Origin: an uncultured Saprospiraceae bacterium
Lineage (GTDB): Bacteria > Bacteroidota > Bacteroidia > Chitinophagales > Saprospiraceae
Assembly: GCA_938010715.1 (NCBI GenBank)
Contig: CALLVG010000107.1
Span: 1 to 45,178 of the forward strand
Length of the DNA: 45,178 nt
Reading direction: 5' to 3'
The first letter of the stretch is position 1; every line of letters begins with the position of its first letter. Below the pieces are notes generated by a model, which searched no databases, had not been told where the DNA came from, and saw nothing but the letters and a program-made list of their open reading frames with translations. This document shows, piece after piece, positions 14,561 to 22,738 of this stretch. The translations under genes were made by a program, and so were the position numbers.

Positions 14561-15151
14561 CTATTTCCTCCGTTTTTCTAAAATTTGAACTACATCTTGC
14601 AAAGAATAACCCTTAGCATTCAGCAAAATTAAATAGTGGAAAATCAAATCTGCCGCCTCATTTAAAAATAAACCCTCGTCATCATCTTTTGCTTCAATGA
14701 CCAATTCGATTGCTTCTTCACCTACTTTTTGGGCAATTTTATTTATTCCCTTTTTGAATAATTCAGAAACATAAGATTGTTTATTCGTTGATGTTTTTCT
14801 TTGTTGGATGATTGCTTCCAATTTAGAGAGCAATCCATAGTCAGTTTTATTGTCTTCGGCCCAACAAGTATCGCTGCCCGTGTGGCAAGTTGGTCCTTCT
14901 GGTTTTACTTTTATCAATAAAGTATCTTCGTCACAGTCATTTTTGATAGAAATGACCTCTAAAAAGTTGCCACTTGTTTCGCCTTTTGTCCATAGCCGCT
15001 GTTTGCTTCTACTATAAAAGCAGACGCGACGTTCTTTTTGTGTTTTTGCAAAAGCTTCCTCATTCATATAGCCAAGCATGAGCACTTTGTCTGTCGATCC
15101 ATCTTGAATTATTGCAGGTATTAGCCCTTCATTATTGTATTTTAAATTCAT
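14561..15151 (-). CDS. hisIE: Bifunctional phosphoribosyl-AMP cyclohydrolase / phosphoribosyl-ATP pyrophosphatase
   Basis: His[13 protein letters not shown] and [12 protein letters not shown]; His[18 protein letters not shown] and [14 protein letters not shown]. Confidence 0.96.
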
Positions 15152-15903
15152 ATTCGAACTTCTATTTTGTTGTTTTTTAAAATGTTCTTGAGATCAAGAA
15201 TTTTTATTTCTTCATAATGAAAAACGCTTGCAGCCAATGCGGCGCTTACTTCTGTTTTGTGAAAAACATCAATAAAGTCTTCTGTACTCCCTGCACCTCC
15301 TGAAGCGATAACAGGGATCTGAACAATTTCACTTACCCTTTTTAAAGCGTCGATTGCGAATCCATTTTTTGTACCATCATTTTTCATAGAAGTAAAAAGA
15401 ATTTCACCAGCTCCTCGGTCTTCGACTTCTTTTGACCATTCAAAGAGATCTATTGCTGTGGCAATACGTCCGCCAACCAAATGAACCTTCCAATCTCCAT
15501 TAATTGGTTTTGCATCAATTGCTACGGTGATGCATTGGTTGCCAAATACATTGCTCAATTCGTTGATAATTTTTGGATTTTTGACAGCAGCAGAGTTGAT
15601 CGAAATTTTATCAGCTCCTGCTCTTAATACTTGATAGACATCTTTTACGGTTCTAATGCCACCACCGACCGTAAATGGAATGTTTGTTTTTCGAGCTACA
15701 TTTTCTACCAGATCAATTAGCGTTTTTCGTTTATCTGCACTAGCACTGATGTCCAAAAAAACTAACTCATCTGCACCGCCTTCCGAGTATTTTTCTGCCA
15801 AAAGTACGGGGTCACCTGCATCACGCAGACCGACAAAATTAACCCCTTTGACTGTTCTGCCATCTTTAATATCCAGGCACGGAATAATTCTTTTTGTGAG
15901 CAT
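15148..15903 (-). CDS. hisF: Imidazole glycerol phosphate synthase cyclase subunit
   Basis: [41 protein letters not shown]; 4-bp overlap with hisIE. Confidence 0.97.
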
Positions 15904-15911
15904 AGCTTTTC

Positions 15912-16637
15912 TTAGTTATTGATGATAAATTTCTCAAGTTCGACCAAAGGTATTCTGTTCTCATAAATGGCTTTTCCAATTATAGCCCCTTCCAGACCAA
16001 TTTTTTTCAATTGTTTCAAATCATCTATTCCATCAACACCTCCACTGGCTATTAATTTTATTGTTGGAAATTTTTGTATTATTTCTTCATACAAATTTCC
16101 TGAGCTACCTGATAGCATTCCGTCCTTTTCTATATCTGTACAAATAACATTTTCAACACCTTCTGAAATGTATTTTTTTAAAAAATAAAACAAATCAACT
16201 TCAGTAGTTTCTTCCCAACCATTCACTGCTATTTTTTGTTTTTTGGTGTCTGCTCCAAGAATGATTTTTTGCGAACCATATTTTTTGAGCCATGTCAAAA
16301 ATAAGGCAGAATCCTTGATCGCAATACTACCACAAGTGACTTGATTTGCACCACAGTCAAAAGCAGTTTGGATCGCTTCGTTAGTCTTGACACCACCTCC
16401 AAAATCCACAACAAGGCTCGTTTTCAAACAAATTGCTTCCAATGATTTCCAGTTGATAATTTTCTGTGCTACTGCTCCATCCAAATCAACAACGTGTAGA
16501 TATTTCACGCCATGTGCTTCGAACCTTTTTGCCATATCTAATGGGCTATCATTATATACTTTTTGTGTAGAATAATCACCTTGTGATAGTCGCACACATT
16601 TACCATTGATGATATCAATCGCAGGTATGATTCTCAT
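15912..16637 (-). CDS. hisA: ProFAR isomerase
   Basis: [45 protein letters not shown]. Confidence 0.97.
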
Positions 16638-16639
16638 AT

Positions 16640-17221
16640 TTATAATTTTAAAAAATTGTTTAAAATTTGCATTCCAACGTCACTGCTTTTTTCTGGATGA
16701 AATTGGCATCCAAAAAAATTATTCTTTTGAATTGTCGCTGAAAACTTGAAGGAATAGGTTGCTGTACTTGTTGTGAATTGAGATAACGGCACGTAATAGG
16801 AATGCACAAAATATACATAACCACTTGGTAAAATTTGATTGAAGAGTGATGACCCAAAATCATCGATTTGATTCCAACCTATATGAGGTATTTTTAAATC
16901 ATGATTAAATTTTTGAACCTTCATTGGAAAAATTCCAAGACAAGCGGTATCGTTTTCTTCGGAAGAAGTACACATTAGCTGCATCCCCAAGCAGATACCC
17001 ATAACAGGTTGTTTGAGTGAAGGAATCAACTCGTTTAAACCTGATTTTTGGAGTTCGTTCATTGCACTGTTTGCTGCACCAACACCAGGGAAAATGACTT
17101 TGTCTGCACTCCGAATTTCATTTGGATTACTCGTGCAAACACCCTCATAACCAAGTCGCTCAAGAGCAAATTGTACAGATTTAATATTACCTGCTCCATA
17201 ATCAATTATTGCTATTTTCAT
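16640..17221 (-). CDS. hisH: Imidazole glycerol phosphate synthase glutaminase subunit
   Basis: IDYGAGNIKSV, VMGICLGMQLM, CQFHPEKSS. Confidence 0.97.
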   Translation of the reverse strand: MKIAIIDYGAGNIKSVQFALERLGYEGVCTSNPNEIRSADKVIFPGVGAANSAMNELQKSGLNELIPSLKQPVMGICLGMQLMCTSSEENDTACLGIFPMKVQKFNHDLKIPHIGWNQIDDFGSSLFNQILPSGYVYFVHSYYVPLSQFTTSTATYSFKFSATIQKNNFFGCQFHPEKSSDVGMQILNNFLKL

Positions 17222-18324
17222 TACAGTACCCCTTTTGTAGATGGTAAATACATCTGATTCAAATCACGTCGAACTGCCATTCGAATCGCTTTAGCGAAGG
17301 CTTTAAAAATTGATTCGATTTTATGATGCTCATTAGTCCCTTCTGCTTTTATGTTAAGATTGCATTTGGCGCTATCCGAAAAACTGTTGAAGAAATGAAA
17401 GAACATTTCCGTCGGCATTTTGCCAATCATTTCTCTGTTGAATTCAGCTTCCCATACCAGCCAATTTCTGCCACCAAAATCAATAGCAACCTGAGCCAGA
17501 CAGTCATCCATCGGCAGACAAAAACCATATCGTTCCAAACCTTTTTTGTTACCGATGGCTTTTGCAAATGCTTCGCCGAGTGTAATCGCAGTATCCTCGA
17601 TGGTATGATGCTCATCTACTTCCAAGTCTCCTTTAGTCGTGAGCTCCAAATCAATCTGTCCATGTCTTGAAATTTGATCAAGCATATGGTCAAAAAATCC
17701 GATACCTGTATCTATTTTTGATTGTCCAGTACCATCAATATTTAGTTTGATTTCTATATCCGTTTCTTTTGTTTTTCTTGAAACTTCGACCCGCCGCAAA
17801 CCAAATTTTAAATATTCATAAATCGTTTTCCACGAAGTAGTTTGAAGGGTTATTCCCTCTGACACGCGCCCTTCCTTTTCGCCAATAAAAATTCCTTTTG
17901 CACCAAGATTTTTTGCGAGTTGCATATCACTCATTCTATCACCGATAACAAAGGAATTTTTTAAATCATACTCCTCCGAAAAATAAGCAGTCAGTAGCCC
18001 TATCCTTGGCTTTCGAGTAGGAGCATTTTCGTGTTCGAAAGTTTTATCTATTAAAATTTCTGCAAACTCAATTCCTTCATTTTTTAGTGCTAAGAGCATT
18101 TTGTTTTGAGCTGGCCAAAACGTTTCCTCTGGAAAAGAATCGGTTCCCATTCCATCTTGATTCGTAACCATTACGAGCTCATAATCGAGTGTTTCGGCAA
18201 TCAGTGAAAGGTATCGAAAAACGCCTGGATAAAATTCCAATTTTTCTAAACTATCAACTTGATAATCTTCAGGCGGTTCAATAATAAGTGTTCCGTCTCG
18301 GTCTATAAAAAGAACTTTTTTCAT
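17221..18324 (-). CDS. hisB: Bifunctional histidinol-phosphatase / imidazoleglycerol-phosphate dehydratase
   Basis: HAD motif [14 protein letters not shown] plus IGPD motifs [14 protein letters not shown] and [16 protein letters not shown]. Start set at 18324 (ATGA overlap with hisC), not the ORF-track start 18441. Stop overlaps the hisH start (TAATG). Confidence 0.95.
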
Positions 18325-19346
18325 TTTGTAAAATCTTTGAGTGCATTGATTAAGAATTGATTTTCTTCGGGTGTGCCTACTGTGATACGAAGGCAATTTT
18401 CGCAATGCAATTCTTTGCTTCGGTTGCGAACAACGATACATTTCTCACACAAATATTTATAAATCAGATCTGCGTTTTGAAATCTTACTAAAAAGAAATT
18501 AGCTTTTGAAGGAAATATTTTTTCAACAAAATCTAAGTCAGAAAGTGAAGTGTTTAATTTTTGTTTTTCTATATTTATTTGTTCCAAATTAGGAATAATT
18601 CCAGAAGAAATTGCCTCCAAGGCCACCTCTTGTGTCAGCAAGTTAATATTGTACGGCAATTTTATTTTATTCAAAATTTCGACAACAAATTGATTAGCAT
18701 AACACATTCCCAATCGAATAGAAGCCAGTCCCCATGCTTTGGAAAAAGTCTGCATAACAATTAAGTTAGGATGTTTTTCAATCTGACTTGACCATGACGG
18801 ACTCGAAGAAAAATCTTTGTAGGCCTCATCGACTACCACGAGGCAGCTGACTGCATTTAGAATGTTAAAAATTTTATCTGATTTGATTTCATTCCCTGTC
18901 GGATTGTTGGGAGAGCATAAGAAAATGATCTTGGTTTGTTCATCTACGCTATCTATCACCGCATTTGCATCGAGACTAAAGTCTTTGTTTAGAGGCACTT
19001 TTTTCGTTGCGACTTCATTGATGTTTGCTGCAACGCGAAACATACCAAAAGTTGGCGGTGTAATAATAATATTGTCTGATTTTGGTTCACAAAATCCGCG
19101 AATTAATAAATCAATAATGCCATCGCTTCCATTACTCAAAAATATATTATCCGTTGCTATGTTCTTGATTTCAGAAATAGCAATTTTCAATTTTTTTTGA
19201 TAAGGATCTGGGTAGCGATTGTATTTCCCGTATGGGTTTTCATTGGCGTCCAAATAAACAGAAACCTCACCCATAAATTCGTCTCGTGCAGAGGCATAAG
19301 GCATTAGGTTTTGAACAGAAGGACGTACTAATCTTTTTAAATTCAT
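18321..19346 (-). CDS. hisC: Histidinol-phosphate aminotransferase
   Basis: [41 protein letters not shown]. Confidence 0.96.
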
Positions 19347-20629
19347 GAGTTGTTTTTTAATCTAATTGAAACTGCGTTTTTGTGCGCTTGTAAGCCTTCT
19401 GCCGCTGCCATCAATTCGATTGCATTTCCAATGTTTTTCAAACCTGATTGAGTTATTTTTTGGAAAGTTATTTTTTTGACAAAAGCATCTAAATTGACTC
19501 CGCTATAATTTTTTGCAAACTGATTGGTTGGCAATGTGTGATTGGTGCCAGAGGCGTAATCACCAGCACTTTCTGGAGTGTAATTTCCAATAAATACCGA
19601 GCCAGCATTTTTTAAATTTTTTAAATAAAAATCCTCATCTTTTGCACAAAGAATGAAATGTTCTGGGGCATATTCATTGATAAATTCTATACTTTCTTCT
19701 TTTGATTGGATGAGCACCAACTTTGAAAAAGAAAGTGCAGTTTGTGCTATTTTTTTTCGCGGCAATAAAGGGAGTTGCTTTTCAATTTCTGTTTTTATTT
19801 TTTGTAAAATTTCAATTTTGTTTGACACGCATATAACCTGACTATCAGTGCCATGTTCAGCCTGAGAAAGCAAGTCCGAGGCGACAAAGGCTGGATTGGC
19901 AGTTTCGTCCGCTAAGACCAATAATTCTGAAGGGCCCGCAGGCATATCAATACCGATACCAAGTTGCTGTGCATGAGTTTTTGCACTAGTGACATACTGG
20001 TTTCCAGGTCCAAAAATTTTGTAAACTTTAGGAACGGAAAGCGTACCAATGCTCAAGGCTGCAATAGCTTGTGCTCCTCCTATCTTGAATATTCTGGTAA
20101 TACCCGTCAACCTTGCCGCATACAAAATAGCTGGATTAATTTGCCCATTTTCATCGGGTGGAGTACAAAGTATCACCTCCTGACAACCAGCAATTTTTGC
20201 AGGGGTTGCCAACATCAAAACTGTTGAAAATAATGGCGCAGTGCCTCCAGGGATATAGATACCAATCCGCTCAATGGGCCTACTCTCTTGCCAACATTCT
20301 ACCCCTGGAGTGGTCGTGATGATTTTTGGTTTTACTGCTTGAGCAGAATGAAATCGAGCAATATTTTGATTGGCTAATTGAATGGCTTCCTTCAAATTTG
20401 TAGGCACTTTAGCAATGCCAGTTTGCCACTCCTCTTCGCTTATTTCTAATTCTTGCAATTGAACATTATCAAATTTTTTAGTAAAAAATCGGATTGCTTC
20501 ATCTCCCTCTTCTTTTATTTTTTTAAAAATATCAACAATCAAGTTGTTTAGGTCTTTTGTCTCTAAGACAGGGCGCTTAACAAGATCTGGCCAATCTTTA
20601 CGAGTTGTCGTTTTATAAATTTTTATCAT
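19343..20629 (-). CDS. hisD: Histidinol dehydrogenase
   Basis: RIGIYIPGGTAPLFSTVLMLATPA, VYKIFGPGNQYVTSAK, MPAGPSELLVLAD, LLSQAEHGTDSQ. Confidence 0.97.
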   Translation of the reverse strand: MIKIYKTTTRKDWPDLVKRPVLETKDLNNLIVDIFKKIKEEGDEAIRFFTKKFDNVQLQELEISEEEWQTGIAKVPTNLKEAIQLANQNIARFHSAQAVKPKIITTTPGVECWQESRPIERIGIYIPGGTAPLFSTVLMLATPAKIAGCQEVILCTPPDENGQINPAILYAARLTGITRIFKIGGAQAIAALSIGTLSVPKVYKIFGPGNQYVTSAKTHAQQLGIGIDMPAGPSELLVLADETANPAFVASDLLSQAEHGTDSQVICVSNKIEILQKIKTEIEKQLPLLPRKKIAQTALSFSKLVLIQSKEESIEFINEYAPEHFILCAKDEDFYLKNLKNAGSVFIGNYTPESAGDYASGTNHTLPTNQFAKNYSGVNLDAFVKKITFQKITQSGLKNIGNAIELMAAAEGLQAHKNAVSIRLKNNS

Positions 20630-21483
20630 CGAATCATGGTTTCAATAGGTGATACTAAAATGCCTTCAGCTCCGGCAGATTTGAGTTGGTCAATAACTTC
20701 CCAATAATTCTTTTTGCTAATGACCGAGTGCAATGAACTCCACCCCTCAATGGCTAAAGGCAATATGGTTGGGCTTTTTAGGACTGGAAGTAATTTGGTG
20801 ACCGCTTCGATTTTCTCATTGGGTACATTCATCAAAATATATTTGTGAGAACCTGCCTCCAAAACCGATTGAATCCGAAAAAGAAGTTTATTCAAAATTT
20901 CATCTTTGTCTGGTAGGAGTTTTGGCGCTTTTACTAAAACAGCCTCAGATTTTAACATAACTTCTACCTCCTTCAAACCATTTTGAAAAAGTGTACTTCC
21001 TGTGCTTACGATATCGCAGATACCATCTGCCAAACCAATATTTGGTGCGATTTCTACCGAACCTGCAATGAGGTGAATCTGTGCTTCAATTCCCTTTTCT
21101 TTGAAAAATGATTGGGTAGTATTAGGATAAGAAGTGGCTATTTTTTTACCATTAAAAAAACTTAGCCCAGTGTAATTCACGTTTTTGGGAACCGCAAGTG
21201 AAACGCGACATTTCGAAAAACCTAAACGCCCTACGGTCTCAATATTTTTCCCTTTTTCGATTACCGTGTTCTCTCCTATGATAGCGATATCGGCCACCCC
21301 GTCACTTACATATTGAGGAATGTCTGAGTTACGTAGGTAAAAGATTTCGAGAGGGAAATTTCGAGCAGAAGTTTTAAGCTGATTTTTTCCGTTTTGGACA
21401 GCAATACCGCAACTCTTCAGCAATGACATAGAGTCGTCTTTTAGTCGTCCCGATTTTTGAATAGCAATAGTTAATTTACTCAT
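20626..21483 (-). CDS. hisG: ATP phosphoribosyltransferase (long form)
   Basis: MSKLTIAIQKSGRLKDDSMSLL..., DVADIAIIGENTV-type motif, C-terminal regulatory domain. Start set at 21483 (ORF track extends to 21510). Confidence 0.95.
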   Translation of the reverse strand: MSKLTIAIQKSGRLKDDSMSLLKSCGIAVQNGKNQLKTSARNFPLEIFYLRNSDIPQYVSDGVADIAIIGENTVIEKGKNIETVGRLGFSKCRVSLAVPKNVNYTGLSFFNGKKIATSYPNTTQSFFKEKGIEAQIHLIAGSVEIAPNIGLADGICDIVSTGSTLFQNGLKEVEVMLKSEAVLVKAPKLLPDKDEILNKLLFRIQSVLEAGSHKYILMNVPNEKIEAVTKLLPVLKSPTILPLAIEGWSSLHSVISKKNYWEVIDQLKSAGAEGILVSPIETMIR

Positions 21484-21538
21484 GATTTTATAAAAGATTA
21501 AAAAAATCATCTGAGTAAACGTGAACTTGGAAAAGAAA

Positions 21539-21569
21539 AAAGCCCATCCGATTAACTCAGATGGGCTTT
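21539..21569 (-). terminator. Intrinsic terminator of the his attenuator
   Basis: Minus strand AAAGCCCATC TGAGTTAATCG GATGGGCTTT followed by TTTCTTTTC; lies between leader ORF and hisG. Confidence 0.88.
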
Positions 21570-21598
21570 AATTTATTTTGAAACTACAATAGCATCAT

Positions 21599-21655
21599 TC
21601 ACTCACCTGTGGTTAGTTTATGTGAATGATGATGATGTAATTGATTAAAATTCAT
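21599..21655 (-). CDS. hisL: his operon leader peptide MNFNQLHHHHSHKLTTGE*
   Basis: 19-codon ORF with 5 His codons out of 6 consecutive positions, 12-bp-scale distance from a TAnnTTTG box, followed by a terminator and hisG. Absent from the supplied ORF track because of size. Confidence 0.9.
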   Translation of the reverse strand: MNFNQLHHHHSHKLTTGE

Positions 21656-21671
21656 TTTCAAATTGTTTGGT

Positions 21672-21703
21672 CAAAGGTATGCACATTCTCTTGAGAAAAA
21701 CAA
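21672..21703 (-). promoter_or_regulatory. Putative Bacteroidetes housekeeping promoter for his operon
   Basis: Minus strand TTG-N21-TACCTTTG; -7 box matches TAnnTTTG exactly, the -33 box and spacing are less ideal. Confidence 0.55.
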
Positions 21704-21859: not shown

Positions 21860-22738
21860 ATGCTACAATCAATGACAGGTTATGGAAGGGCTTCAGGCAC
21901 TTACAAAGACAAAACCATAAGTGTAGAAATCCGCTCTTTGAATAGTAAATTTATGGATACTCGCTTTCGAGTTCCAGCTACTTACAAAGAGAAAGAAGGG
22001 GAATTGAAACGAATCATTGCCAACAAAATGCATCGGGGTAAGATTGATTTGTTGATAGAAACCGACTCTGCAAAAGGAGAAGCAGATTTTTCTATTAATA
22101 AAAATCTTTTCAAAGCTTATTACAGAGAATTGAAGGAAATGTCTGAAGAATTGGGCATTGAGCAAACGGATTACATCACTTCTATCATGCGAATCCCAAA
22201 TGTAGTGGGACCTTCTGGAAATGAATTAGATCCTGAAGAATGGAAGGTGGTCGTTACAACCATAAAAGAAGCACTTCAAAAAATAAGTGATTTTCGAATG
22301 GACGAAGGGCAGGTTACTGAGGATGATTTGAAAGAACGCGTAAACTCCATCATTCAAAGTTTGAGCGAAGTACCACCTTTTGAGGCAGAGCGAATTGAGA
22401 AGATGCGTGAACGCTTAAATCAAAATTTAGCAGAATACTTGGGAAGCGAGAACATTGATAAAAATCGCTTCGAACAAGAAATGATTTTTTATATCGAAAA
22501 GATTGACATCTCTGAAGAAAAAAGCCGTTTGGCTCAACACTGCGAATACTTTTTGGAACAATTGGCGGACACCAAAAATATTCAAAAAGGTAGAAAATTG
22601 AGTTTTATTGGTCAAGAGATGGGAAGAGAAATCAACACATTAGGGGCAAAGGCATACTCCTCCGGTTTGCAAAGGCTCGTTGTAAAAATGAAAGATGATC
22701 TGGAGAAAATTAAAGAGCAAGTTGCAAACGTGGTTTAA
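21860..22738 (+). CDS. yicC: YicC/YloC family endoribonuclease
   Basis: MLQSMTGYGRASG, EIRSLNSKFMDTRFR, and C-terminal GRKLSFIGQEMGREINTLGAKA. Confidence 0.94.
   Translation: MLQSMTGYGRASGTYKDKTISVEIRSLNSKFMDTRFRVPATYKEKEGELKRIIANKMHRGKIDLLIETDSAKGEADFSINKNLFKAYYRELKEMSEELGIEQTDYITSIMRIPNVVGPSGNELDPEEWKVVVTTIKEALQKISDFRMDEGQVTEDDLKERVNSIIQSLSEVPPFEAERIEKMRERLNQNLAEYLGSENIDKNRFEQEMIFYIEKIDISEEKSRLAQHCEYFLEQLADTKNIQKGRKLSFIGQEMGREINTLGAKAYSSGLQRLVVKMKDDLEKIKEQVANVV

Follow-up and report, generated by a model that had tools for sequence, protein, structure and literature searches.

A predicted histidine leader-peptide attenuator precedes the his operon of an uncultured Saprospiraceae bacterium and its Bacteroidota relatives

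The window, a 45,178-nt stretch of an uncultured Saprospiraceae draft genome that is 76.6% complete, carries a complete hisGDCBHAF(IE) operon on its minus strand, as found by NCBIfam profile search. The first gene, hisG (20629..21483), encodes the long form with the C-terminal regulatory domain (TIGR00070 and TIGR03455, both above cut-off). It is followed by hisD, hisC, the bifunctional hisB, hisH, hisA, hisF and hisIE (14564..20629, minus), all with NCBIfam equivalog matches above cut-off. The hisG start would be 21510 in the ORF list; alignment to relatives backs a start at 21483. The operon is headed by a leader and terminator region (21483-21703, minus), which sits between hisG and a divergent gene at 21860-22738 on the plus strand that we take to be YicC-like. 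A first-pass annotation had described a leader ORF, a 10-bp stem and a terminator ahead of hisG, and all three are in place on the minus strand.

The leader ORF (21599..21655, minus) encodes MNFNQLHHHHSHKLTTGE followed by a stop, in the codons ATG AAT TTT AAT CAA TTA CAT CAT CAT CAT TCA CAT AAA CTA ACC ACA GGT GAG TGA. Its putative control codons are four consecutive His codons, (CAT)4, at 21626..21637 (minus), and a fifth His codon lies at 21622-21620. The sample comprised 177 regions upstream of hisG, drawn from Saprospiraceae and others of the same order as well as from Flavobacteriales, and a short ORF starting with ATG was scored as His-rich if six codons included three or more for His. 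Such an ORF preceded hisG at 159 of 177 loci compared with 19 of 1770 shuffled copies (1.1%), demonstrating that the five His codons are not due to chance. On the antisense strand the same scan returned 5 of 177. An unbiased amino-acid scan of the leader ORFs gave HHH as the only common tripeptide in the upstream ORFs (137 of 173 loci), with the next, of leucine, at 5. Apart from the His run, the leader peptides of Saprospiraceae have neither a fixed length nor a fixed sequence. Comparison of relatives for the leader ORF, its His codons and covariation upstream of hisG had been proposed in the first-pass annotation; the ORF and His codons proved to be kept across Saprospiraceae, Flavobacteriales and other Bacteroidota. 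In a phylum-wide sample, 55 of 68 loci had a leader (GTG and TTG starts were also allowed, and this count has no shuffled baseline). Leaders occurred in most genomes with a long, well-matching HisG, and in none of the seven loci of this sample with the most distant HisG.

An intrinsic terminator hairpin, AAAGCCCATCTGAGTTAATCGGATGGGCTTT, followed by a T-run, occupies 21539..21569 (minus) and leaves a gap of 55 nt to hisG. A terminator was present behind 149 of the 159 leaders. Pairing tests were run on the 142 loci in which the leader was followed by a clean terminator, seven with mispicked or duplicate terminators being excluded; across these 142 leaders, the His codons were CAT 593 times and CAC 73 times. 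Terminator covariation was assessed in an alignment of 42 sequences (A2), where 98.7% of cells were paired, 28 cells were double changes and the score was matched by 0 of 500 shuffles, with the caveat that the shuffles and E-values in this work allow only partly for kinship among the sequences.

Upstream of the leader ORF, TACCTTTG (21672..21679, minus) matches the Bacteroidota -7 promoter box TAnnTTTG, which the main-text passages of PMC9723704 give as consensus. A TTG at 21703-21701, 21 nt 5′ of TACCTTTG, matches the -33 element. Consistent with a promoter at this site, the box is enriched in relatives: 78 of 142 loci have TAnnTTTG in the 70 nt preceding the leader ATG (6.1 expected). Its position peaks at -24 to -28 from the ATG, and the window copy is at -24. 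Transcription is expected to start near 21666, ∼10 nt ahead of the leader ORF. A Shine-Dalgarno-like motif preceded the leader in 1 of 142 loci, which is not beyond chance, and the window leader also has none. In 21 loci (L036, L052, L053, L065, L068, L087 and others) the distance from the start of the box to the leader ATG is only 12-18 nt, so leader transcripts there may be nearly leaderless; some leaders without a Shine-Dalgarno sequence would then begin almost at the transcription start.

The region is strongly folded. The minimum free energy of 21530-21660 was -39.8 kcal/mol, compared with a mean of -20.1 (sd 3.6) for 200 dinucleotide shuffles, none of which was as good (z = -5.47). The centroid contained two hairpins, the terminator and a 10-bp stem. 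The stem had been described as a perfect complement, and indeed CATCATTCAC (21622..21631, minus) pairs exactly with GTGAATGATG (21593..21602, minus). The 5′ arm, here called segment 1, is built of His codons, and the 3′ arm overlaps the leader stop. The helix is lengthened by a lower stem of 7 bp (21642-21636 with 21588-21582). In the proposed scheme this would be an anti-antiterminator. A register-free test of own versus swapped pairing at the 142 loci supported the stem (z = -11.7), part of this signal being forced by the His codons, since the control codons overlap the stem. In contrast, fixed-register covariation in either register gave 60-68% paired, with little or no excess over shuffles, and in the window the stem register is shifted by one codon. 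We therefore describe the segment-1 stem as a conserved tendency rather than a conserved helix.

The first-pass annotation could see no clean antiterminator by eye. This has been superseded, as an antiterminator was found in the last leader codons. Its 5′ arm, segment 2 (21604..21615, minus), consists of TAAC (21615-21612) and CAGGTG (21609-21604), flanked by GT at 21602-21601. Its 3′ arm, segment 3 (21553..21566, minus), corresponds to the terminator loop together with the terminator arm 5′ of it. CAGGTG pairs with CATCTG (21563-21558) and TAAC with GTTA (21556-21553), giving a duplex of -9.9 kcal/mol that was equalled by 2 of 100 shuffles. Bases 21566-21553 are common to both structures, making antiterminator and terminator mutually exclusive.

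This pairing recurs across relatives, even where their sequences have diverged considerably. At the 142 loci, we scanned the stretch 3′ of a ribosome at the first His codon against the terminator 5′ arm and loop, and in nearly all of them the best partner was the 3′ end of the leader ORF. The arm begins upstream of the leader stop in 138 of 142 loci, and that of the window spans -18 to -1 relative to this stop. Each locus paired better with its own terminator than with those swapped between species (mean -14.3 versus -10.4 kcal/mol; z = -16.7), and the same test within each of the two terminator types gave z = -8.0 and -11.4. The window duplex is weaker than the mean over loci. In alignment A2, 84.6% of antiterminator cells were paired, compared with 27-49% when slid, and the covariation score was reached by 3 of 500 shuffles. 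Terminator and antiterminator pairings are thus conserved or covarying upstream of hisG. Relative to the consensus, the window itself carries a triple change (C57U, G112A and C130U in A2; C-G-C to U-A-U) affecting one base each in segments 2 and 3 and in the 3′ arm of the terminator, which preserves both alternative pairings.

The two terminator types also bear on what the leader peptide is for. A His-rich peptide conserved upstream of hisG could in principle be a functional small protein, perhaps metal-binding, instead of a regulatory peptide. We regard this as extremely unlikely, because among Saprospiraceae the peptide is unconstrained in length and sequence beyond the His run, and because the codons of its conserved C-terminus in Flavobacteriales are the ones that pair with the terminator arm. 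In Flavobacteriales and the closest Saprospiraceae, CTCAGGCGAGG pairs with CCGTTTGAG, and the codons of this arm yield the recurrent TQAR or TQAS C-terminus. Other Saprospiraceae instead have GGCAAATGGTGA (K-W-stop), which pairs with ACCATTTGCC; the terminator has changed to match.

Some leader peptides act on translation or on Rho-dependent termination, and this leader might likewise control hisG translation or Rho-dependent termination rather than the intrinsic terminator. That reading is very unlikely here, given that a clear intrinsic terminator with a T-run ends the element in 149 of 159 cases and that the conserved alternative pairing targets the terminator 5′ arm, not the hisG start. 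In a simpler arrangement, the intrinsic terminator would just end a short transcript from upstream and hisG would be expressed from a separate promoter, the His ORF and stem being incidental. The strength of the terminator on its own and the 55 nt between it and hisG would both fit. Against this, conservation of the His ORF and of the antiterminator pairing greatly exceeds chance (142-159 loci), the enrichment is for His and for no other amino acid, and a conserved promoter box lies ahead of the leader (the scan covered the leader-upstream side). A separate hisG promoter is accordingly a highly improbable explanation.

We consider it very likely that the element controls the his operon by ribosome-mediated transcription attenuation, judging from the sequence comparisons and folding models. 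In the proposed mechanism, transcription would begin ∼10 nt upstream of the leader with its run of four His codons. When His-tRNA is ample, the ribosome would reach the leader stop and cover segment 2, which lies in the final codons of the leader; the terminator would then form and transcription would end ahead of hisG. Under His-tRNA shortage, the ribosome would stall on the His codons and open the segment-1 stem, and the freed segment 2 would pair with the terminator 5′ arm upon its transcription. This would prevent the terminator and allow transcription of the entire hisGDCBHAF(IE) operon. If no ribosome is present, segment 2 would be held in the loop of the segment-1 stem, and the terminator would form. 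The model presumes that the leader ORF is translated, that ribosomes stall on it, that translation and transcription are coupled and that the system responds to histidine.

Constrained folding, with an assumed ribosome footprint of -14 to +15 from the P site, gave structures consistent with these states. The segment-1 stem and terminator formed in the absence of a ribosome. With the A site on any of His1-His4, the antiterminator formed as soon as the terminator 5′ arm had emerged, at -10.6 kcal/mol, and with the ribosome at the stop codon the antiterminator was absent and the terminator free to form. In agreement with the first-pass proposal that a His-stalled ribosome would open the stem, masking the His codons opened it and enabled the antiterminator to form. 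In full-length equilibrium folds, the terminator was favoured in every ribosome state. At -20.4 kcal/mol it is far stronger than the window antiterminator and is preferred at equilibrium, so antitermination would have to be kinetic.

The E. coli hisL leader (MTRVQFKHHHHHHHPD, then stop; Rfam RF00514), which we analysed by the same procedure as the window, shares a His-codon ORF before hisG, exclusive hairpins and an intrinsic terminator. The geometry differs: in hisL additional hairpins separate the leader stop from the antiterminator arm, which occupies +31 to +49 relative to that stop, whereas in the window the arm lies inside the last leader codons (21615-21604), and the hairpin arrangement in between is not that of hisL. 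The Bacteroidota leaders also differ from enterobacterial hisL in having no Shine-Dalgarno sequence (1 of 142 with an SD-like motif). The three-pairing logic (1:2, 2:3 and 3:4) is that of E. coli trpL, with His codons replacing Trp; in trpL segment 2 follows the leader stop, whereas in the window it precedes it. Predicted amino-acid attenuators were reportedly described beyond the proteobacteria, Bacteroidetes/Chlorobi included, by Vitreschak et al. in 2004.

At the gathering threshold, Rfam gave zero matches in the whole window. The RF00514 His_leader model scored 27.9 bits (E = 0.0067), below its gathering score of 49. Matches to the ncr1575 and trpB models at a lax E-value were also sub-cut-off, and we dismissed them as two-hairpin-plus-T-run lookalikes. 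According to main-text passages of PMC9723704, the Flavobacterium psychrophilum transcriptome contains a structured 5′ element upstream of hisG that is conserved in Flavobacteriaceae, and there are strong clues to leader-peptide attenuation before amino-acid operons, with no Rfam match. Flavobacterial hisG leaders were already hinted at in 2021; these passages contain no antiterminator, hisG leader sequence or extension to Saprospiraceae. Flavobacterial leaders in our sample (e.g. MNFIQLHHHHFHTCTQAS, then stop) have the same plan as the window. Based on the hisL comparison, the Rfam score, this F. psychrophilum element and the 2004 predictions, the class of function is known and of the enterobacterial kind, and the window is a well-supported new example with clade-specific geometry.

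Comparative evidence therefore points to textbook his leader-peptide attenuation across Saprospiraceae, Flavobacteriales and other Bacteroidota, in which the Rfam families all score below threshold. If this is true, transcription and translation in the phylum would be coupled closely enough for attenuation despite leader starts that have no Shine-Dalgarno sequence. As the antiterminator arm is coding (the last 4-5 leader codons), a ribosome at the stop codon would cover it directly. A bolder proposal, to which we give a little under even credence, is that the coding antiterminator arm and SD-less starts mark a distinct, phylum-wide architecture of Bacteroidota his attenuators, with an origin perhaps independent of the enterobacterial one. 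The leader set is ready for annotation and reporter tests.

We also searched relatives with a covariance model (R1) built from 42 sequences, which recovered close relatives at 88-101 bits. Five weak matches away from hisG (weak set, 2.5e-5 to 1e-3) looked like chance terminators and were rejected. The sixth, L263 (G008:C98:12204-12263, minus), is a His leader in a related genome that has no HisG match. Its leader start, MNFNTLHHHFHTYTQVR, continues in frame into sequence that resembles the C-terminal part of HisG (DVLINVPNDKI), and the locus has the look of a remnant left by deletion of a his operon. A hisG match was absent from 56 of 150 sampled Saprospiraceae genomes (∼37%), including all five genus-mates examined (G001-G005). 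Many of the Saprospiraceae genomes with no hisG match are >90% complete, and histidine auxotrophy may be widespread among Saprospiraceae. Outside the window, trpE of the same genome (L253:629-686, G000:C173) is preceded by a leader ORF encoding MNLLNIKNWWWQNTDSHT, then stop, and by a very strong terminator; this is likely a trp attenuator of the same design as the his leader.
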